Shown one piece after another: positions 20,419-30,975 of a stretch of 64,000 nt of DNA (position 1 is the stretch's first letter; each line of letters begins with the position of its first letter). Under the pieces are notes generated by a model. The model searched no databases. It worked only from the letters and a program-made list of their open reading frames with translations, and was not told the origin of the DNA. The stretch covers positions 1-64,000 of the forward strand of contig DVDT01000007.1 in assembly GCA_015296085.1 (NCBI GenBank), written 5' to 3'. The translations under genes and the position numbers were made by a program. This stretch comes from Trichormus sp. M33_DOE_039. GTDB taxonomy: Bacteria; Cyanobacteriota; Cyanobacteriia; Cyanobacteriales; Nostocaceae.

Positions 20419-20709
20419 TTAGCAATAGAGAGTCACATCTTCATTACACTCATCTGCTAAATAAGTTAAAGCTTTGAAACGTAGTTCTACTAACTGTTCA
20501 TAAAAAGGATTGAGCTTACATAAAGGTGGAATGTAAATAATAGTCCGATGAAGAAATTTAATTTCTCTCTCAAAAGGACAACTGGCCGGGATAATTGTAC
20601 AGAGCCATCGTGCTAATCGGTAATTTTCGATTTTTAAAGATTCCAGCCATTGACGTATAGGCTGTAGAAGATTGACGCAAGAGGCGAAAGTGTATGTATT
20701 GGTAGTCAT
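20419..20709 (-). CDS. Mo-dependent nitrogenase C-terminal domain protein
   Basis: A 96-residue protein made almost entirely of the Mo-nitro_C domain, recognisable by IRQWLESLKIENYRLARWLC, IIPASCPFERE and LCKLNPFYEQLVELRFKAL. The domain is typical of N2-fixing cyanobacteria and carries conserved Cys residues. Its name reflects association with Mo-nitrogenase, but the biochemical role is not established. It overlaps the stop of the upstream gene at 20706 by four bases, so the two are translationally coupled. Confidence 0.8.
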   Translation of the reverse strand: MTTNTYTFASCVNLLQPIRQWLESLKIENYRLARWLCTIIPASCPFEREIKFLHRTIIYIPPLCKLNPFYEQLVELRFKALTYLADECNEDVTLYC

Positions 20710-21146
20710 GATTTTGTTAAGAAATGAACTTCAGGGGAGATTAACAAAATTTTTTTAATGAACAGATTGTCAGACTCAGAAACATCTGACATGATTACTT
20801 GTCTAACATTTTCATGAATCAGGATTTTTCCTTCAGCATTAGCACTAAAATCTTGACCAGGAATAAATCCTTTTTTAATGAGCTTTTGGATAACAAATTT
20901 AGTTATTTGTTGAAGTAAATTAGCATAGGGTTGCCAATCAGATAAATTGTCTATAACCCAATGAAAAGTATCGATGTCTGTTACAGATAGCTCCAATATT
21001 GCTGCTGTTAAACAAGATTCTATATATTCTGGTTTTAGGTTGGTAGTTAGCTGAATAACCCAAGATTCCGCGAGATTTTTGTCTCGAAATTTGAGGATAT
21101 ATATAACTCTTCTGAGATCTGAATGGAATCGTTCTAATTCGTTCAT
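20706..21146 (-). CDS. conserved hypothetical protein coupled to Mo-nitro_C gene
   Basis: A 146-residue, probably alpha-helical, soluble protein without recognised motif (MNELERFHSDLRRVIYILKF at the start, several Trp in the middle). It has no signal or membrane segment. The ATGA-type overlap with the following Mo-nitro_C gene makes an operon very likely, so its role may be linked to the diazotrophic state. The function is unknown. Confidence 0.65.
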   Translation of the reverse strand: MNELERFHSDLRRVIYILKFRDKNLAESWVIQLTTNLKPEYIESCLTAAILELSVTDIDTFHWVIDNLSDWQPYANLLQQITKFVIQKLIKKGFIPGQDFSANAEGKILIHENVRQVIMSDVSESDNLFIKKILLISPEVHFLTKS

Positions 21147-21496: not shown

Positions 21497-21871
21497 TCAC
21501 CAGTTTAGAGCTGCGGCAATTTGTGTGTGTAATTTCATTGCTTTGAAAGGCTTAGTAATAATTGCTTGCACTCCTAGTTCGGCAAAACGTCGTTGTTCAG
21601 CTGCTTGTGTCTTTGCTGTCAACAAAATAACCGGAATGGATTGTGTGGCAGGATTCGCTTGTAATGCTTGAAATGTAGTGATTCCGTCCATATCAGGCAT
21701 CATTACGTCTAGAAGGATAACATCTGGTGGTTCGGCGATCGCCTTAGCTATTCCTTCACTACCGGAAGCGGCCGTTGAGACTTGCCAAGCACCCACTGCT
21801 TTTAAGGAGAGTTCAGCCACGGCTCGAATGTCATATTCATCATCAATGATGAGAATGTGTTTCTGAGTCAT
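21497..21871 (-). CDS. single-domain response regulator (CheY-like receiver)
   Basis: A 124-residue stand-alone REC domain. The acid pocket (IIDDEYD), the phospho-acceptor Asp in VILLDVMMPDMDG, the switch Thr in VILLTAK and the Lys in ITKPFKAMKL are all present. It should accept a phosphoryl group and signal by protein interaction. It is the last of four co-directional two-component genes and lies 115 bases after the ethylene-receptor-like kinase, its most likely partner. Confidence 0.92.
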   Translation of the reverse strand: MTQKHILIIDDEYDIRAVAELSLKAVGAWQVSTAASGSEGIAKAIAEPPDVILLDVMMPDMDGITTFQALQANPATQSIPVILLTAKTQAAEQRRFAELGVQAIITKPFKAMKLHTQIAAALNW

Positions 21872-21986: not shown

Positions 21987-24900
21987 TCACTGATCATTGG
22001 GGCAAATCATCCGGTTGAGCAAGTTAACTACACGTTTTTCAAATTCTTGTGCAGTAATGCGTCCTTTAGTGAGGAATAGTGTTTGTCCTAACTTTAACTT
22101 TTCGCGATCGCTCTCATCTAAATCGCGCGCTGTATATACAACTAACGGCACTTGACACAAACGCTGATGTTGTCGCAGCCAATCCACTACAGCAAAACCA
22201 TCGTATTCTGGCAACCCTAGATCTAGCACCAACAAATCAGGGATGATTGTCTGGCTAATCTGTATAGCTTCCCGTCCTGTTTGGGCATAAAAACTAGTAA
22301 CACCATAGCGGTTAAACATGGCAATCAGTACCTGTGCCAAATCTAAATCGTCTTCTATGATTAGCACTTTAATTGATTGATTTTGTTTGGCAGTTGCTTT
22401 TTCCAATGCTTGGCACAATAACTGAAGATTTGGCGGTTTGACAATCCAGTCACTGATATGGTCTGGAAAAGCTTGATGGGCATCAGGTAACAATCCACTC
22501 AGGATGATGACTGGAATATTCTGGGTTTGTGGCTGCTGTTTTAAAACCGCAAGGGTTTCCCAACCATCCATCTCAGGCATCATGAGGTTGAGGATAACTA
22601 CATCAGGATGGTGTACTTTAGCTTGTTCTACTGCTTCTTGTCCTGATGCTACTGCCATGACTCGGTAGCCTTGACGTTCTAGCATAGTTTGCAAGACAAC
22701 CCGAATACTGGGGTCATCATCGCACGCTAGTACGAGTGGGGGATGGGGAGATAAACAGGGAATATGGAGAGATGTAGCATCTGTTTCCCACGGTGTAGAG
22801 GTGACAGGCAGTGAAGATGTCCTGGTGTCTGCTTCTGTGATCATTGGTAAAGTAAAAAAGAAAGTGCTGCCTTCGCCCAAACTACTTTCAACCCAAATGT
22901 TTCCTCCATGATGTTGCAAAATTGTGCGACAAATCGCTAAACCTAAACCTGTTCCTCCTTTTTGGCGGGAGTCGGAAGCATCAACTTGTCCAAAACGCTC
23001 AAAGATAGATTCTAGTTTTTCCGCTGGGATACCCCGACCTTGGTCTTTAACTTGGAACAGAATGTAGGGAAATGTAGCATCAGCTGCTTGCAGAGTGGGG
23101 AATGTTGCTTTTTGATTTTCTTCTCCAGTTACTAACTCAGCACTTAACCAAACAGTAGAATCTGGAGGCGAAAATTTAATCGCATTGCTGAGTAAGTTGG
23201 TGAACACTTGGATGATGCGATCTGAGTCAGCCCAAATTTGGGCTGATATGGGGGCAATCGATAATGTCACCCTGGCTTGAGTTGCCATTTCCTCCATGAC
23301 TTCTACTGACTGGTTCATTAAGTCAGCAGCATTGCAGATTTCTCGGTTCATTTCTACTTTGCCTGATGCGATGCGTTCGATATCCAGGATGTCGTTAATC
23401 AAACGCACCAACCGCTCTGTATTACTAGCTGCAATATTTAACATCCTTTGAGCATCTTCAGGCTGAGTTTGCAGAACTCCACTAGCTAGCAAATCTAAAG
23501 CCCCAGAAATCGAAGTTAAGGGGGTTCGTAATTCATGACTGACTACCGAGACAAATTCATCCTTGAGACGTTCGACTTCCCGGCGATCGCTAATATCCTT
23601 CATAAAGCAATAATGGCCAATAAATCGCTCCTGTTGGTCATAGGCTTTGACCATGACTACTTGCTTATCAAAAAGCGATTTATCTTTTCGTATTGCTCTA
23701 CCTTCTGCTTCTACCTTGCCATGAGTAAGCATCTGTTCGTAAGCGGCCTTGAGTTTTACTAAATCTTCTGGATGAACTGTTAATTGCCAATCCATACCAA
23801 TCAGTTCTTCTGGCTGATAACCCACGGCGTTGGCATAAGCGGGATTGACTTTGATATAACGTCCCTGCGTGTCTAACTGCGATATACCCTCTACTGCACT
23901 TTCTAATGCTCGACTGAGATGGCTTAGTTCTTCTTCGGCTCGCTTACGCGCAGTAATATCATTGTTAATTTCTAAAGTTATTTCTGCTCTACCTTGTTCA
24001 TCGCGCTGCAATGTCCAACGACTGTCTACTACAATGGGTGTGCCATCGCGTTTAGTGTGTACAAGTTCACCTACCCACCGCCCATGTTGCCAAAGTTCCG
24101 CAGCGATTTCTGCCATTGGCTGAGGAAACTTAGTTTTTAGGAGTGTATGAGAAATTTGCCCGATCGCTTCGGCCTTTGTCCAGCCATACATCTCTTCTGC
24201 ACCGCGATTCCAGAAATCAATCCTACCGTTTAAATCGCGAACGATGATGCTATCTTGAGTCAAATCAAGCAGTAATGCTTGTTTTTGTAGTTCTGCTTCG
24301 ACTCGTTGGCGTTCGAGTATTTCCTCCTGCAATGCTTGATTAGTAGCTAATAACTCTATCGTTCGTTCTTGAACTCGGATTTCTAACTCATGGTGCGCCC
24401 GGTGCAATGCTGTCTCTGCTTGTTTGCGTTCGCAAATGTCACGACCTTCGGCAATCAGTAGCACTACTTTTCCCGTGTCATCAAATACAGGTTTGAGAGA
24501 AAAGTCAACCGTTGTTTGTGTATTTTCCGCACCCCGGACATCAAATTCAGCACGGAAAAACTGACCAGATGTGGCTTGAGCGATCGCCGCTTTTAAGCGA
24601 TTTTGAGTGGTTTCCCCAACTGTCCACCATTCTGTTTCCCAAAATGGGCGATTGATGACATCTGCATACATCAGTCCCCCAAAGTTGAGGGCAGTTTGAT
24701 TGGCTTCTAAGAGTGTGCCATCAGGATGGAGCAGCCCCATAAACTGAAAAGTCTGGTCAAAGATAGCCCGGAATCGCCTTTCGCTGTCGCGCAGCGCATC
24801 TTCTACCCTTTGACGTTCGATGATTTCCTGTTGGAGTTTTTGGTTAGCTGATTCCAACTGATTTGTACTTGGAATTTCTAATGCTTTAGGCAGTAATTCT

Positions 24901-25238
24901 ACTGCGACAACAGCAGTGTAGACAGATATTATAGCCGTCAGAGCTTTGACAAGACCAAATGACCAGTATGTTGGATACCAAAGTGTCCAAACTGCCATGA
25001 AATGGGTTGTTGCACAAGCAATAATCAAACCTCCAAACAATAGGAAAAGACCTTTAAAGGGAATATCTTTCCGCTTGTGGATGAAATAAAGCAATGTTAT
25101 GGGAATTGAATAAAATGACAAGCTAATTAGACCATCAGACAACAAATGTAGCCACATCAACCCAGGATTCCAAAGATAGCAATGGCCATGAGGAATCAAG
25201 GAGATAGAGGCGAATAAGGTGTGTAATGATTCCAGCAT
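21987..25238 (-). CDS. hybrid histidine kinase with ethylene-receptor-type membrane domain
   Basis: A 1083-residue hybrid sensor kinase. Residues 27-125 form three membrane helices that match the ethylene-binding domain of plant ETR1. The aligned residues are Asp35, Ile45-Pro46, Cys75 and His79, spaced exactly as Asp25, Ile35-Pro36, Cys65 and His69 in ETR1; these include the Cu(I) ligands (CATTH). PAS domains follow at about 150-270, 325-440 and 445-560, then HisKA ([15 protein letters not shown]), an HATPase with [13 protein letters not shown], and two receivers. In receiver 1 the phospho-acceptor is Asn884 (VILNLMMPEMDG), so it is probably not phosphorylated. Receiver 2 keeps its Asp (LVLDLGLPEYDG). 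It may sense ethylene or another small ligand. Unlike Synechocystis Slr1212, no bilin-type GAF domain is visible. Confidence 0.88.
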   Translation of the reverse strand: MLESLHTLFASISLIPHGHCYLWNPGLMWLHLLSDGLISLSFYSIPITLLYFIHKRKDIPFKGLFLLFGGLIIACATTHFMAVWTLWYPTYWSFGLVKALTAIISVYTAVVAVELLPKALEIPSTNQLESANQKLQQEIIERQRVEDALRDSERRFRAIFDQTFQFMGLLHPDGTLLEANQTALNFGGLMYADVINRPFWETEWWTVGETTQNRLKAAIAQATSGQFFRAEFDVRGAENTQTTVDFSLKPVFDDTGKVVLLIAEGRDICERKQAETALHRAHHELEIRVQERTIELLATNQALQEEILERQRVEAELQKQALLLDLTQDSIIVRDLNGRIDFWNRGAEEMYGWTKAEAIGQISHTLLKTKFPQPMAEIAAELWQHGRWVGELVHTKRDGTPIVVDSRWTLQRDEQGRAEITLEINNDITARKRAEEELSHLSRALESAVEGISQLDTQGRYIKVNPAYANAVGYQPEELIGMDWQLTVHPEDLVKLKAAYEQMLTHGKVEAEGRAIRKDKSLFDKQVVMVKAYDQQERFIGHYCFMKDISDRREVERLKDEFVSVVSHELRTPLTSISGALDLLASGVLQTQPEDAQRMLNIAASNTERLVRLINDILDIERIASGKVEMNREICNAADLMNQSVEVMEEMATQARVTLSIAPISAQIWADSDRIIQVFTNLLSNAIKFSPPDSTVWLSAELVTGEENQKATFPTLQAADATFPYILFQVKDQGRGIPAEKLESIFERFGQVDASDSRQKGGTGLGLAICRTILQHHGGNIWVESSLGEGSTFFFTLPMITEADTRTSSLPVTSTPWETDATSLHIPCLSPHPPLVLACDDDPSIRVVLQTMLERQGYRVMAVASGQEAVEQAKVHHPDVVILNLMMPEMDGWETLAVLKQQPQTQNIPVIILSGLLPDAHQAFPDHISDWIVKPPNLQLLCQALEKATAKQNQSIKVLIIEDDLDLAQVLIAMFNRYGVTSFYAQTGREAIQISQTIIPDLLVLDLGLPEYDGFAVVDWLRQHQRLCQVPLVVYTARDLDESDREKLKLGQTLFLTKGRITAQEFEKRVVNLLNRMICPNDQ

Positions 25239-25390: not shown

Positions 25391-27910
25391 CTATGTAATT
25401 GAGCCATCTGCCTTCTTCAACTTTTCCAGAATGGAATCGGCTGCTTGGTAAAGTGCTTGGAGATTAGTTCCATCTTGGGGATACGCAACTACTGCTGTAC
25501 TAAAGGTAACGTGGAATTTATCACCATTGGGGGGAGTAAACTCAAGTTGTTGCCAACTTTCGAGAATTTCTGCTAGTCGTCGTACTCCTTGAGCTTTTGT
25601 GATTCCTGCCATACCAATTACAAATTCTGTACCGCCCCAGCGTCCGACAGTATCCTGGGTGTGGAATTTCTGCCGCAAAAGTTCTCCTAGTTGGGATAAG
25701 ATGCGATCGCCAAACTCATGGCCGTATTTGTGATTAATTTCCTTCAGTTGGTCTAGTTCCAAAATCACGAAGCAGAAAGGCTGTTGGTGCTGATCGCTCC
25801 ATTGAAGATATTGATTGATCTCTTGGGTAGACTTACGGCGATTGGCAACTAATGTTAAGGCATCGATTTCTGCTAAATTTCGTAACCAGCGCGATCGCTC
25901 TAGGCGATTAAGTATGCGAGTAATCAGTTCTGGTTCGACAATCGGTTTGCTAATGTAGTCGTCAGCACCGGCTATAAATACCTGCTGCCTAGTTGTAGTA
26001 TCGCTGTGAGCGGTAAGAAACAAAATCGGCACTCCGCTCCATCGAGGATCATTCCGAGCAACTTGGCATAACTCTATACCAGTTACTGCTGGCATTTCTA
26101 CATCTAAAATCACCAAATCTGGCTCACTTGCTACCATAGCGTCCAAAAATCGGAGGGGGTTATCTAGTGTGTAAACCTGAAGTCCCCAAGGTACGAGTAA
26201 AGTCTGCAAAGCAGCCAATATCTGCGGATCATCATCCACAATCATGACCGTCGCTTCATGAGAACGAGTACGCCGGAGAATTTGAGTTACCGTTTCTAAA
26301 ACTTGGTTTGGGGACACAGGCTTTTGTAAGAAACCGCTTGCACCCAAACGAGCAACTTTTACTCGGTCAAGTAAAGAGTTCTTGTGGGTGAGAACTACAA
26401 TCGGTACAGATAACTGATGGGTGTGAAGTTCTGCTAGTAAAGCTAAAGTATCTTCTTGAGTCTCGCTAGCACTAAAGTCAAGCAGCACAACATCAGGAGA
26501 ATTTTTAGCGATCAACTCTCTAGCAGTGATTTTATCTGAGGCAGTTGACGATGGTGTAGCGTGCGCGAACCGCACTTGTATTCCCCAACTACTCGTCTGT
26601 TTTGCCAACGCCTCGGCTAATTCCTGATCCTGGTTAACAATTAACAGCAAAGGACGCTCATCCACCGATTGATGATGGGAAGGCAGTTCTGGCTGATACT
26701 CTAAATTCAACAGTTGTAGTTCTTGGCGCAATCCCCCAACCAATTGTGAGATTTGCTGTTTTGTGGCTGGCTCTAGCTTAGTATTGACTTCCAACAGAGT
26801 TTCTATTTCTTGAGCTAGATGAGAACCTGTATCAGATCCAAACATCCCCAGAGAACCCGCCAGTTTATGGGCTTCTGACTTAGCTTTTAATCGCATTTCC
26901 TGAGTGAGCTTATCCTGTAACAACATGGCAGAGGCTTGCTCAATCGTCACAATTCGCTCTTCCAATTGCGGTGCTGCTCTCTCCCAGACTTGAGCTACTC
27001 CCGTCACCACCTGATTTTTAATTCTGCTGTTCCTGTCTTGCTCAAAAATGTCTGTCTCAAAAGTTGCTCCCAAGTTGGGTGATTTGATCGTTACTGTGTT
27101 GAGAGCGTTGCTGCCATTGTCATCACTGTTATGCTGAGGTGCATAGGTTTTAGATTGGGGTTGTTGTTTGCGTCCTCGCTGTCCATTGTCTCTAATGCTT
27201 GGAGACTCTAAGTTTCCCTTGTGTACCCCTTGTCTTTCTGCTGGCTTGAGTTTATATCCGATACCGTAAACTGTCTCAATGGGATCTTCTGCGACTCCCA
27301 CTGCTTTGAGTTTTTGCCTTAACCCTTTCATGTGGGATCTAACTGTATAGTCTGTAGGTGGTTCTTCAAAAGACCACAGATGGTCTATCAGCGCACTACA
27401 GCTAAATATCCGGTGACTGTTACGCAGAAATAGCTCCAACAGGCCATATTCTTTAGGAGTTAAATGTAGTAGTTTCCCATTACAAGTAACTTCACAAGTG
27501 CTGGGGTCTAGTTGGAGGTTTTTCCACTCTAATAAAGGTGGCAAAGTCGAACCACCCCGACGTAATAAAGCCCGAATCCGCGCCAACAATTCTTGAGAAT
27601 CAAAAGGTTTGGCCAGATAGTCATCAGCACCAGCATCTAAGCCCGATACCTTATTTATGCTGGTATCTTGAGCGGTCAATAAGATCACAGGTGTTTGATT
27701 ACCTTGCGATCGCAACCGTTGACAAAAGCTAATGCCGTCAAGCTTGGGTAGCAAAACATCTAGCAAAATCAAGTCATAAGTAAATAACTCCGCTAAATCC
27801 CAACCTTCTTGCCCATCCTTGGCCACGTCAAGAGCATAGTGCTGGTTGAGCAAGGATTTGGTAAGTAATTGAACAATGACTTTATCATCTTCAACTAATA
27901 GAATTCTCAT
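25391..27910 (-). CDS. multidomain response regulator REC-wHTH-HPt-REC-REC-GGDEF-like
   Basis: An 839-residue protein that joins an OmpR-type DNA-binding response regulator to phosphorelay and GGDEF-like parts. The order is REC1 (1-115, LILLDVLLPKLDG), winged HTH (about 130-230, ending TVYGIGYKLKP), a low-complexity linker, HPt (about 300-400, SEAHKLAGSLGMFG with the phospho-His), REC2 (about 420-540, acid pocket changed to VNQDQ), REC3 (548-665, LVILDVEMPAVTG) and GGDEF-like (675-839). The GGDEF signature reads GGTEF (759-763), so the catalytic Asp/Glu position is Thr and cyclase activity is doubtful. It sits between two hybrid kinases in the same direction and could pass phosphate through its HPt. 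Confidence 0.88.
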   Translation of the reverse strand: MRILLVEDDKVIVQLLTKSLLNQHYALDVAKDGQEGWDLAELFTYDLILLDVLLPKLDGISFCQRLRSQGNQTPVILLTAQDTSINKVSGLDAGADDYLAKPFDSQELLARIRALLRRGGSTLPPLLEWKNLQLDPSTCEVTCNGKLLHLTPKEYGLLELFLRNSHRIFSCSALIDHLWSFEEPPTDYTVRSHMKGLRQKLKAVGVAEDPIETVYGIGYKLKPAERQGVHKGNLESPSIRDNGQRGRKQQPQSKTYAPQHNSDDNGSNALNTVTIKSPNLGATFETDIFEQDRNSRIKNQVVTGVAQVWERAAPQLEERIVTIEQASAMLLQDKLTQEMRLKAKSEAHKLAGSLGMFGSDTGSHLAQEIETLLEVNTKLEPATKQQISQLVGGLRQELQLLNLEYQPELPSHHQSVDERPLLLIVNQDQELAEALAKQTSSWGIQVRFAHATPSSTASDKITARELIAKNSPDVVLLDFSASETQEDTLALLAELHTHQLSVPIVVLTHKNSLLDRVKVARLGASGFLQKPVSPNQVLETVTQILRRTRSHEATVMIVDDDPQILAALQTLLVPWGLQVYTLDNPLRFLDAMVASEPDLVILDVEMPAVTGIELCQVARNDPRWSGVPILFLTAHSDTTTRQQVFIAGADDYISKPIVEPELITRILNRLERSRWLRNLAEIDALTLVANRRKSTQEINQYLQWSDQHQQPFCFVILELDQLKEINHKYGHEFGDRILSQLGELLRQKFHTQDTVGRWGGTEFVIGMAGITKAQGVRRLAEILESWQQLEFTPPNGDKFHVTFSTAVVAYPQDGTNLQALYQAADSILEKLKKADGSIT

Positions 27911-28188: not shown

Positions 28189-30975
28189 TTATAGCTTTTG
28201 GTATTTGATGAGATTAGCGATCGCCTGCAACAAAATCTCTGGTTCTAAAGGTTTAGAGATATGCTTTTGGAATCCTGCTTGCAGAGCTTGTTGCTGATTA
28301 AAATCACCCGCATAGGCAGTGAGGGCGAGTGCAGGAATTTGACCACCTTGCTCTGGTGGCAACGCTCTCACTTGTCGTATCAGCATATAACCATCCATAT
28401 CGGGCATCCCAATATCACTAACAAGCACATCTGGCTGCGATCGCCTTAAAATTGCCAATGCTTCAGTTGCATTTGCGGCGGCTGTCACCACTGCCCCAGC
28501 CTGCTCTAACAGAAAAGCCACAAACTCCCGTGTATCGATATCATCATCGACAAGAAGAACTTGAACACTGCTTAAATCAACGGATAATTCTGATGATTGC
28601 TGATTTTGTCTTTCCTGATTTGGGTTGGATGGCAGTGGCAGTTTGACTGTAAATATTGCCCCCTGCCCTTCCCCTGGACTCTCTGCCTGAATCATACCGC
28701 CATGTAGTTCTACTAAGTGGCGCACAATTGCTAGCCCTAAACCCAATCCCCCAAACTTCCGAGTGGTTGTGGCATCGGCTTGACGAAAGTAGTCAAATAT
28801 ATGCGGCAGAAAATCAGCTTTGATACCTTTGCCTGTGTCGCTGACCGTAATTTGGGCGTGAGTGCTATCTTGCTCTAGTCGCACATCAACTCGCCCCCCT
28901 TCTGGTGTGAACTTGACTGCATTGGAGAGCAGATTCCATACTACCTGCTGTAAGCGAGCAGGATCTCCAGAAATTTGCGGAATATTTGCATCTAGGGTGT
29001 GGTGAATTTGAATCGACTTGGCTTGGGCTGCGAGTCGTACCGTTTCCATTGCCGATACAACGGTTGTAGCCAGATCAACGGTTACAATATTCAGACTGAG
29101 TTTGCCCCGTAAAATCCGGGAGACATCCAGTAAGTCTTCAATCAGTTCAGACTGCAACTTGGCATTGCGTTCGATTACGCTCAGAGCTTGAGCGGTTTTG
29201 TTTTCGTCTAGCTTGCCAGTCCGCATGAGGTGTGACCAACCTAAAATGGGGTTCAGGGGCGATCGCAGTTCATGAGACAGCACTGCCAAAAACTCATCTT
29301 TAATCCGATTCGCTGCCTCAGCCTCAGCCCGAGCTGCTTGCTCAGATGCCAAGCTGCGCGCCAATTCAGCCTGAGCTTGTCGTTGCTCAGTGATATCAAC
29401 CGCCATTCCTGCCAGTAATTGCTGTCCAGCAGCATCTTTGATGGGGAATTTAAAGGACAGGAAATGGTGTTCGCCATCTTCTAGAGGATTCGTCTCAGCA
29501 ATTTGCATTGCCTGACCTGTTCGCAGCACAGCTACATCATTGTCTCGAATGGGTTGGGCCACTTCTGCTGCAAAGAAATCAAAATCTGTTTTACCCAACC
29601 ACTCTGCCAGAGGACGATGGAAAGAATGCTCCACTTGCGGATTAACGTATAGGTAATGCCCTGACTCATCTTTGATAAAGGCATTGACGGGACTGTAATT
29701 CATGAAGCTTTGAAATAAGGCTTGGCTGGCTTGTAATTCTTCCTCAGCTTGCTGCCGTTCCATAAATTGCCCAATCTGGCTGCCGAGTGCGCTCATCAGG
29801 TGGAGTAAATCGTCATCAGGTTCTTGATAACGGTTACTAAAGCATTCAATCACGCCTAAAATTTCTTGACCTAATGAAACTGGAAACCCAAAGACACTGT
29901 GCAGTCGCAAATTACAGGCGATCGCAGCTCTAGGAAAATTAGGGTCTTGAGCTAAGTTGCTAATCCACGCAGGTTGACCGCTTTTCCAGATCCGACCCGG
30001 TAAGCCAACACCAGAGGTAAAAGTTATTTCTTGATTTGTCCTCATTAGATCTGCCACATTCATTTCTGGAACAGACCAACTACTGAGATAGCGCATCATA
30101 TTAGCCTGGGGATCAACCCGCCACAGAAATCCCAGTTGCCAACCTAAACCTTCGCACAGGGACTGCAACACCAATGGCATCACATCCGCCAAAGTGCTGG
30201 CTTCAGCCAACACCTTTGCTACTGCATACTGAACTGCAAGGCGTTGCTCGGCTTGTTTGCGATCGCTCAAATCAAGGACAAAACTGATCAAACTTTCAGA
30301 ATGACTGTGCAGTAAAGCTGCTCCCACAATCACAGGTATTCGCTGTCCATTTTTGCCAATAAATGCTTTTTCGTAGGCTGTATTTTTTCCTTTAGTCAGC
30401 AGTTCTTCTATTGCAGGTACATCGCGATCGCGTAAATCTGGCGGTGTCATCTGATCCCAACGCACTCGTCCTGCTAAAACATCCTCTTGGCTAAAGCCTG
30501 TCATGCGCAAAAATTCATTATTGGCTTCATGGATAGTTCCATAGATATCGCAAGAAATCACCCCAATGATGTTGGAATCGACTAGACGGCGCAGGCGTGC
30601 TTCTGTTTGCTGGAGTTGTTCTAAATTCTGTCGGCTTTGCTGTTGAGCGATGCGTAATGACCCTACTAAAACACTGATCAAACATCCCTGGAACACAAAT
30701 AGTCCCATCCTAGCCCCACTAGCCACTGTTAGATTCAGGCTCAAGACTGGCTCAAGGAAAAAGTATTTGGCACATAATGTTGAGAAAAATGTGGCTAACA
30801 AACCTGGATCTCGTCCTCCATACCAAGCACTAATTGTCACCGCTCCAAAGAAGAGCAGAAACGATGCTTGGGTTAACTGAATGTAAGGATCTAGTGCCAG
30901 CATCAATAATGTAGCGATGACCACTAATGCGATCGCCACTCCGTAATTCCAAATTTTCTGCTTGAACTTGAACAT
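28189..30975 (-). CDS. hybrid histidine kinase, DUF4118-PAS-GAF-PAS
   Basis: A 928-residue membrane sensor kinase. Residues 1-115 hold a KdpD-like DUF4118 region with several helices (GAVTISAWYGGRDPGLLATF is diagnostic). Then come PAS (about 125-240), GAF (about 245-405), PAS (about 415-535), HisKA (VLSHELRSPLNPILG), HATPase (GGLGLGLAIVRHLVELHGG) and a C-terminal receiver with an intact acceptor (VLVSDIGMPDMDGYMLI). The signal is unknown. It is the first gene of the leftward cluster that continues with the multidomain regulator at 25391 after a 278-base gap, so separate promoters are possible. Confidence 0.9.
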   Translation of the reverse strand: MFKFKQKIWNYGVAIALVVIATLLMLALDPYIQLTQASFLLFFGAVTISAWYGGRDPGLLATFFSTLCAKYFFLEPVLSLNLTVASGARMGLFVFQGCLISVLVGSLRIAQQQSRQNLEQLQQTEARLRRLVDSNIIGVISCDIYGTIHEANNEFLRMTGFSQEDVLAGRVRWDQMTPPDLRDRDVPAIEELLTKGKNTAYEKAFIGKNGQRIPVIVGAALLHSHSESLISFVLDLSDRKQAEQRLAVQYAVAKVLAEASTLADVMPLVLQSLCEGLGWQLGFLWRVDPQANMMRYLSSWSVPEMNVADLMRTNQEITFTSGVGLPGRIWKSGQPAWISNLAQDPNFPRAAIACNLRLHSVFGFPVSLGQEILGVIECFSNRYQEPDDDLLHLMSALGSQIGQFMERQQAEEELQASQALFQSFMNYSPVNAFIKDESGHYLYVNPQVEHSFHRPLAEWLGKTDFDFFAAEVAQPIRDNDVAVLRTGQAMQIAETNPLEDGEHHFLSFKFPIKDAAGQQLLAGMAVDITEQRQAQAELARSLASEQAARAEAEAANRIKDEFLAVLSHELRSPLNPILGWSHLMRTGKLDENKTAQALSVIERNAKLQSELIEDLLDVSRILRGKLSLNIVTVDLATTVVSAMETVRLAAQAKSIQIHHTLDANIPQISGDPARLQQVVWNLLSNAVKFTPEGGRVDVRLEQDSTHAQITVSDTGKGIKADFLPHIFDYFRQADATTTRKFGGLGLGLAIVRHLVELHGGMIQAESPGEGQGAIFTVKLPLPSNPNQERQNQQSSELSVDLSSVQVLLVDDDIDTREFVAFLLEQAGAVVTAAANATEALAILRRSQPDVLVSDIGMPDMDGYMLIRQVRALPPEQGGQIPALALTAYAGDFNQQQALQAGFQKHISKPLEPEILLQAIANLIKYQKL

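Follow-up and report, generated by a model that had tools for sequence, protein, structure and literature searches.

Among characterized relatives of the protein studied here, the cyanobacterial receptor SynEtr1 (PMC6682694) and AzoEtr1 of Azospirillum brasilense (PMC11819568) are reported to bind ethylene. The copper site of the Arabidopsis receptor ETR1 is described as Asp25, Cys65 and His69 (PMC12643061), and replacement of the Asp by Asn is stated to reduce the affinity about 100-fold, this Asp bridging to a conserved Lys (PMC13012798). Seven residues are described as required in AtETR1 and as conserved in both Geitlerinema receptors (PMC6682694), and AzoEtr1 is likewise reported to keep all seven (PMC11819568). 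Here we analyzed a 64,000-nucleotide stretch of Trichormus sp. M33_DOE_039 (contig DVDT01000007.1, positions 1 to 64,000; hereafter the window), in which the gene at 21,987–25,238 on the minus strand encodes a hybrid histidine kinase of 1083 aa. The source is a filamentous cyanobacterium of the family that includes Nostoc, Fischerella and Calothrix; judged by its sequence, the kinase belongs to the bacterial ethylene-receptor-like family. We consider it, at a probability of roughly 0.55, a cyanobacterial ethylene-receptor-type hybrid kinase that would hold Cu(I) and bind ethylene or a similar small alkene; ethylene sensing by this protein is likely, not assured.

The open reading frame (ORF) was uninterrupted from ATG to stop and lay where an earlier note, made from the letters alone (the sequence-only reading), had placed it with no strand given. 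The encoded protein is organized as ETR1_N, PAS domains, HisKA, HATPase_c and two receivers (REC). Residues 27–122 (24873..25160) matched the Pfam family PF25487 ETR1_N at 124.1 bits (cut-off 27; E=2.9e-36), a score that ruled out chance resemblance. PAS folds followed, PAS_4, PAS_9 and PAS each matching three stretches, then HisKA at residues 559–626, HATPase_c at 671–799 and the receivers. With His568 in HisKA, the HATPase domain and the acceptor Asp1006 in receiver 2, the protein possesses the parts of a hybrid histidine kinase. An AlphaFold2 model built from 45 aligned domains (mean pLDDT 81.9, pTM 0.57) predicted helices at residues 25–55, 62–87 and 91–121, followed by a helical linker; three membrane helices are typical of the ETR1_N family. 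The model placed Asp35, Phe42, Ile45 and Pro46 on the first helix, Ile72, Cys75 and His79 on the second and Lys98 on the third. The sequence-only reading had proposed that a topology keeping Cys75 and His79 apart would speak against a copper site. The two residues did come together in the prediction, and the test is a weak one because both sit one turn apart on the same predicted helix (62–87). Searches for solved relatives of the membrane domain gave only four weak phmmer matches, to light-harvesting proteins (best E 0.033), and none of the 73 Foldseek matches reached E≤0.001, which left no template for comparison.

Asp35 (25134..25136), Ile45-Pro46 (25101..25106), Cys75 (25014..25016) and His79 (25002..25004) aligned with Asp25, Ile35-Pro36, Cys65 and His69 of ETR1 at a constant offset of +10, exactly as the sequence-only reading had stated (all coordinates of the kinase and its cassette refer to the minus strand). 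Ile72 (25023..25025), absent from its list, was kept at the position of Ile62 with the same offset. Lys98 (24945..24947) aligned with the conserved Lys, which we take to be K91 of ETR1, at +7. The copper ligands of ETR1, Cys65, His69 and Asp25, thus have counterparts in Cys75, His79 and Asp35 by alignment, and membership of an ethylene-receptor-like family with Asp/Cys/His copper ligands was supported by the sequence. The earlier claim of a "complete" copper site went too far. Tyr32, reported by Wang et al. (2006) as one of the seven ethylene-binding residues of ETR1, is Phe42 here (codon TTT, 25113..25115), which leaves six of the seven. The apt wording is that the metal ligands are intact and the binding set is six of seven.

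The rarity of this change was assessed in 251 distinct, fairly complete domains, which remained from 340 aligned pieces after duplicates and those covering fewer than 70 of the 88 core columns were dropped. The sample was cyanobacterial only, plant and proteobacterial domains being outside the count, and the window domain entered it under the duplicate id L218. It was drawn from the own genome (five domains), the nearest relatives (the family occurred in 35 of 40 genomes, own included, and all 99 listed non-own matches were used), named contigs (the top 80 among 578 that were confirmed), relatives of the gene cassette described below, and a draw across the class, in which 59 of 116 genomes (own among them) were positive and whose loci were used together with 40 further stretches down the list. 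All seven residues were present in 205 of the 251 domains, and the conserved Lys in 224. Position 32 was Tyr in 246, Cys in three, Asn in one and Phe in one, the lone Phe being that of the window; among the 237 domains with both copper ligands, the counts were 235 Tyr, one Phe and one Cys. The sequence-only reading had noticed the substitution, and its description as a conservative change is misleading in view of these counts. The closest relatives, L250 and L251, possess all seven residues and carry TAT at this codon, in place of TTT. A second departure was Leu71 (25026..25028), which replaces a near-invariant Phe (Phe61 of ETR1 by offset): of the 236 further domains that have both copper ligands, all but two carry Phe there (234). 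Compared with these 236 domains, the window differed at four columns conserved to at least 90%: Val28 to Met, Tyr42 to Phe, Phe71 to Leu and Gly76 to Ala, the last of which is common to the window, L250 and L251. A literature search on the need for the Tyr32 hydroxyl (Y32F) in ethylene binding found no paper that answered it; the window protein and a close Tyr-bearing relative form a natural pair for testing that need.

Related cassettes, in which the kinase gene is accompanied by response regulator genes, were collected by a whole-protein search of 217 family genomes. Forty-two genomes were positive at E≤1e-180, own included, and the best 40 of the 57 non-own match rows, from 34 genomes, were taken; G126:C77 and G055:C23 (about 60% identity) were not taken, nor were 15 lower rows, which include a fragment of L251. 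The sensor comprised an ethylene domain with all seven residues in 16 cassettes, an altered ethylene domain in four, an ethylene domain lacking a copper ligand in three, a remnant in two, a CHASE domain in 12 and an AhpD-like region in two, and it was absent from one. The altered domains had Ile62 to Leu either as the sole change (L272, which nevertheless bears the label 'EBD_intact' in the C-terminal tree) or together with Pro36 to Ser (L252, L255 and L256). The copper ligands were lost by C65T in L261 and by H69Y in L262 and L265, all with the kinase kept. L264 and L266 were open frames in which only the last helix of the ethylene domain was left, and in L263 the sensor was gone and the regulator was fused in frame to the kinase part. 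The CHASE sensors belonged to L274–L285; Pfam was positive in three of three (L274, L275 and L284), and the others were assigned by sequence likeness. In L286 and L287, an AhpD-like N-terminus of about 250 residues, as read from the sequence, stood instead of a membrane sensor, and no Pfam family matched this region of L286. The kinase part is conserved while the sensor varies across the cassette family, which is a new observation here.

When the C-terminal parts of the 41 kinases were placed in a tree, the window grouped with L250 and L251, which belong to other genera, at 100/100 and not with its genus-mates. Its C-terminal identity was 91 and 89% to these two vs. 71–73% to the genus-mates, and transfer of the cassette between genera is one reading of this. 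The seven genus-mates collected formed a separate clade (100/99) that comprised one intact copy (L249), three without a copper ligand, two remnants and one fusion, and the P36S copies formed another. The ethylene site was thus eroded in at least two lineages, and the whole erosion series lay inside the ethylene clade. Eleven of the 12 CHASE rows, which made up a clade of their own, and both AhpD-like rows fell outside it; the twelfth (L274) was a long branch inside the ethylene clade at 80/57. Six genomes (G095, G097, G098, G099, G101 and G202) each contributed two of the 40 cassettes, of which the first had an ethylene domain and the second a CHASE or AhpD-like sensor. Because of this coexistence and of the tree positions, the cassettes with CHASE or AhpD-like sensors are for the most part sisters (paralogues) of the ethylene ones and not swaps within one gene. 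Ligand losses in close relatives show that, in this lineage of kinases, the fold and the kinase can persist after the ethylene site has gone, and so the fold taken by itself is no proof of ethylene sensing. The graded series of sensors in front of one conserved kinase (all seven residues, Phe32, Ser36, copper ligand lost, remnant and absent) could be used to separate the ethylene signal from what the remainder of the receptor does.

Nonsynonymous (dN) and synonymous (dS) changes were estimated by the Nei-Gojobori method on triplets, with 112 codons for the ethylene domain. In the triplet of the window, L250 and L251, the domain dN was 0.075 on the window branch vs. 0.025 on the L250 branch, and the C-terminal dN was 0.028 vs. 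0.019. In the triplet with L250 and L259, the corresponding values were 0.065 vs. 0.034 for the domain and 0.023 vs. 0.024 for the C-terminal part. The domain dS in the first triplet was 0.435 vs. 0.145, so that dN/dS was about 0.17 on both branches (both from pairwise values). On so few codons, these figures would fit relaxed selection on the window domain as well as its absence. Some PAS values were unreliable because relatives carry inserted PAS domains.

In front of the first helix, the window kinase has the motif PHGHCYLW (residues 16–23; 25170..25193), which includes His17, His19 and Cys20. HGxC was sought within the 45 residues before Asp25, leaving out 13 of the 251 rows with fewer than 30 upstream residues. 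It was found in 215 of 227 domains with both copper ligands vs. none of the 11 without (Fisher p=5e-13, kinship uncorrected). On a tree of the other 238 rows, there were eight changes and five independent supported pairs, of which on average 4.5 went in the same direction, none in the opposite direction and 0.5 showed no difference (sign test, median p 0.0625). With this p value and so few pairs, the tie between PHGxC and the copper ligands is suggestive only. The three P36S copies also lacked HGxC, though their Cys and His were kept. The columns of Pro16, Leu22 and Trp23 varied along with PHGxC, in some rows the apparent gap may only mark where the alignment stops, and plain N-terminal decay may be the cause of the loss. 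A single N-terminal Cys is described as possibly forming a dimer disulphide (PMC6682694). We hypothesize that the His residues beside the Cys allow a copper-entry or second metal site. If the tie holds, it would suggest that PHGxC helps bacterial receptors to obtain or bind copper.

The window genome (7.02 Mb) had five ETR1_N matches. Two of them (L006 and L007) retained all seven residues, a third (L008) had Pro36 as Ser, and a fourth was the domain of the window kinase. Another (L009, 4543–6294; G000:C89, about 40.5 kb) was a divergent ETR1_N-like domain with PAS, GAF-like and GGDEF domains. In L009 and in L127–L131, Asp25 was replaced by His and the conserved Lys by Leu or Ile, while Cys65 and His69 were kept and the domain was fused to GGDEF. 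His occupied position 25 in seven of the 251 domains, six of which had GG[DE]EF in frame, and a Cys-His-His site is possible in these. The genome also contained four Cu-ATPase frames above the family cut-off; this is a weak point, as all 14 control genomes had matches, 13 of them above the cut-off. The sequence-only reading had set the kinase apart from the UirS type by its lack of a GAF domain and suggested a "purer" ethylene sensor. A Pfam scan at E up to 1 indeed detected no GAF domain in the window kinase, which thus lacks the bilin-binding GAF of the UirS/SynEtr1 type of photoreceptor. This absence does not distinguish it. Among 59 scanned of the 64 complete relatives listed, ETR1_N was matched in 58, GAF_2 in 17, GAF in 14 and GAF_3 in seven, with overlaps, and at least 21 had no GAF. 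L006 and L007 also lacked it, and L007, which joins the ethylene domain straight to HisKA, is purer than the PAS-bearing window kinase. GAF-less receptors and multiple receptors per genome were ordinary in the cyanobacteria sampled. Taken together, what the sequence-only reading observed was confirmed in part, and its interpretation was partly supported.

The cassette gene upstream of the kinase (25391..27910) encodes a protein of 839 aa, here RR839, with the order REC, winged helix (Trans_reg_C), Hpt, REC, REC and a GGDEF-like domain (GGTEF). The downstream gene (21497..21871) encodes RR124, a single receiver domain of 124 aa. In the 40 cassette kinases and the window, the phospho-accepting His568 of HisKA (23535..23537) was found in 41 of 41, as was Asp1006 (22221..22223), the phospho-acceptor of receiver 2. 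The acceptor position of receiver 1 was Asn in all 41 (Asn884, 22587..22589), so this receiver is a conserved pseudo-receiver. A whole or partial RR839 homologue was detected in 35 of the 40 cassette stretches, on the opposite strand in L274. It was not found in the stretches of L261, L262 and L265; in L263 its N-terminal part is fused in frame to the kinase, and the stretch of L253 starts too near the kinase for its presence to be judged. RR124 was found in 37 of 40 stretches at 55–93% identity and not in those of L249, L252 and L263. With its OmpR-type winged helix and Hpt domain, RR839 would be the natural relay partner of the kinase. The last GGxxF of the 35 RR839 homologues was GG[TSA]EF in 26 and another or no motif in nine, and GG[DE]EF in none. 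Ordinary cyclase activity is not expected of a GGTEF-type motif, and therefore no c-di-GMP output is claimed for RR839. Sixteen of the 40 stretches, including those of five of the seven genus-mates, contained beside the cassette an ORF of 146 aa with no Pfam family (20706..21146 in the window, minus strand); a 96-aa Mo-nitro_C protein (20419–20709) adjoins it in the window. Upstream of the cassette, at 28189–30975, there was a second hybrid kinase (DUF4118, PAS, GAF, PAS, HisKA and REC). Its best match in the 40 stretches was the cassette kinase itself (25–35% identity), and for this reason it seems to be outside the cassette.

The reading as an ethylene receptor draws on the ETR1_N match, the six of seven residues together with the Lys, the retained PHGxC, the relay residues constant in 41 of 41 kinases and the Hpt domain of RR839. 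It is also consistent with the dN/dS equal to that of the L250 branch and with the full set of seven residues in L250 and L251. Two Agaricus receptors with two of three essential residues are reported still to bind ethylene, less than AtETR1 (PMC9603746). Several facts weigh against it. Two near-invariant pocket positions (Tyr32 and Phe61) are altered, and Tyr32 is the one missing from the binding set. The seven residues are termed necessary in ETR1 from alanine scanning (PMC11819568). The TTT codon differs by a single base change that could be a sequencing or assembly error. Amino acid change in the domain was two- to threefold faster on the window branch and not clearly so in the C-terminal part; only the raised dS offset the raised dN, and dS was near saturation in the wider triplets. 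In addition, the same kinase lineage lost copper ligands in L261, L262 and L265 and retained the kinase. The two pocket changes, the raised dN and the ligand losses would also fit an onset of sensor decay, in which the pocket no longer usefully binds ethylene and the kinase is PAS-driven or constitutive. The genus itself offers possible examples, with C65 lost (L261), H69 lost (L262 and L265), only the last helix left (L264 and L266) or the sensor lost by fusion (L263), and P36S with I62L marks a second such lineage (L252, L255 and L256). However, the window kinase retains Cys, His, Asp, Lys and PHGxC, a motif absent from the ligand-losing and P36S copies, its dN/dS is no higher than that of L250, and it falls in another clade than the eroded genus-mates. 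We regard decay as unlikely, though a serious possibility.

Two near-invariant positions changed together while every metal ligand stayed and dN/dS was not raised, which might instead reflect retuning. Loss of the Tyr hydroxyl and Leu for Phe61 would then give a larger and more hydrophobic cavity by the copper, suited to another small alkene or a CO-like gas or to ethylene at lower affinity. Specialization would be plausible in a genome that also harbors two canonical domains, a P36S domain and a divergent one. Yet the changes occur in one genome only and need not be linked, and such a shift in the pocket's ligand seems improbable to us. It is doubtful, too, whether the cassette family with its exchangeable sensors contains here a naturally retuned pocket (Tyr32 to Phe and Phe61 to Leu, ligands kept); if true, it would be a receptor for another small alkene or one with shifted ethylene affinity. 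The retained metal ligands and the N-terminal Cys/His motif, whose losses tend to coincide, could further be explained by a domain that senses copper or redox state instead of ethylene. We consider this very improbable, because characterized relatives with the same domain bind ethylene and the scanned neighboring genes gave no pointer to copper handling.

If the kinase is an ethylene receptor, Cu(I) would be held between Cys75, His79 and Asp35 of the three-helix membrane domain, where ethylene or a small alkene would bind. The affinity or kinetics may be changed by Phe and Leu in place of the pocket residues Tyr32 and Phe61. A bound ligand would change the helical linker and the PAS domains, and through them the autokinase at His568. 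The phosphate would pass from His568 to Asp1006 of receiver 2, because receiver 1 has no acceptor Asp, then to the Hpt domain of RR839 and on to its receivers and DNA-binding domain; RR124 may serve as a second phosphate acceptor. We infer the copper, the ethylene, the direction of the signal, the order of phosphotransfer and the output.

Compared with known systems, the window kinase shares with Arabidopsis ETR1 and the plant receptors the three-helix membrane domain with Asp25, Ile35, Pro36, Ile62, Cys65, His69 and Lys, and a kinase and receiver downstream of it. It differs from ETR1 in having Phe for Tyr32, Leu for Phe61, PAS domains instead of GAF, and two receivers, the first without acceptor Asp. 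Before helix 1 it has one Cys, whereas two are described in plant receptors (PMC6682694). SynEtr1 (UirS), GeiEtr1 and GeiEtr2 are likewise cyanobacterial; they are described as ethylene-domain kinases that have, as it does, only one N-terminal Cys (PMC6682694). GeiEtr2 of Geitlerinema is reported to be a hybrid kinase with PAS and an adjoining gene with a diguanylate cyclase domain, which resembles the arrangement here (PMC6682694). GeiEtr1 and GeiEtr2 are described with GAF and all seven residues (PMC6682694), whereas the window kinase lacks GAF and carries Phe in place of Tyr32. Unlike in these three systems, the regulator in the window is a REC-wHTH-Hpt-REC-REC-GGTEF protein. The CHASE-domain cassette kinases (L274–L285) share a related C-terminal kinase, receivers and mostly related regulators, and have an extracytoplasmic CHASE sensor instead. 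In AzoEtr1, the same domain is reported to bind ethylene with all seven residues kept (PMC11819568), of which the window kinase retains six.

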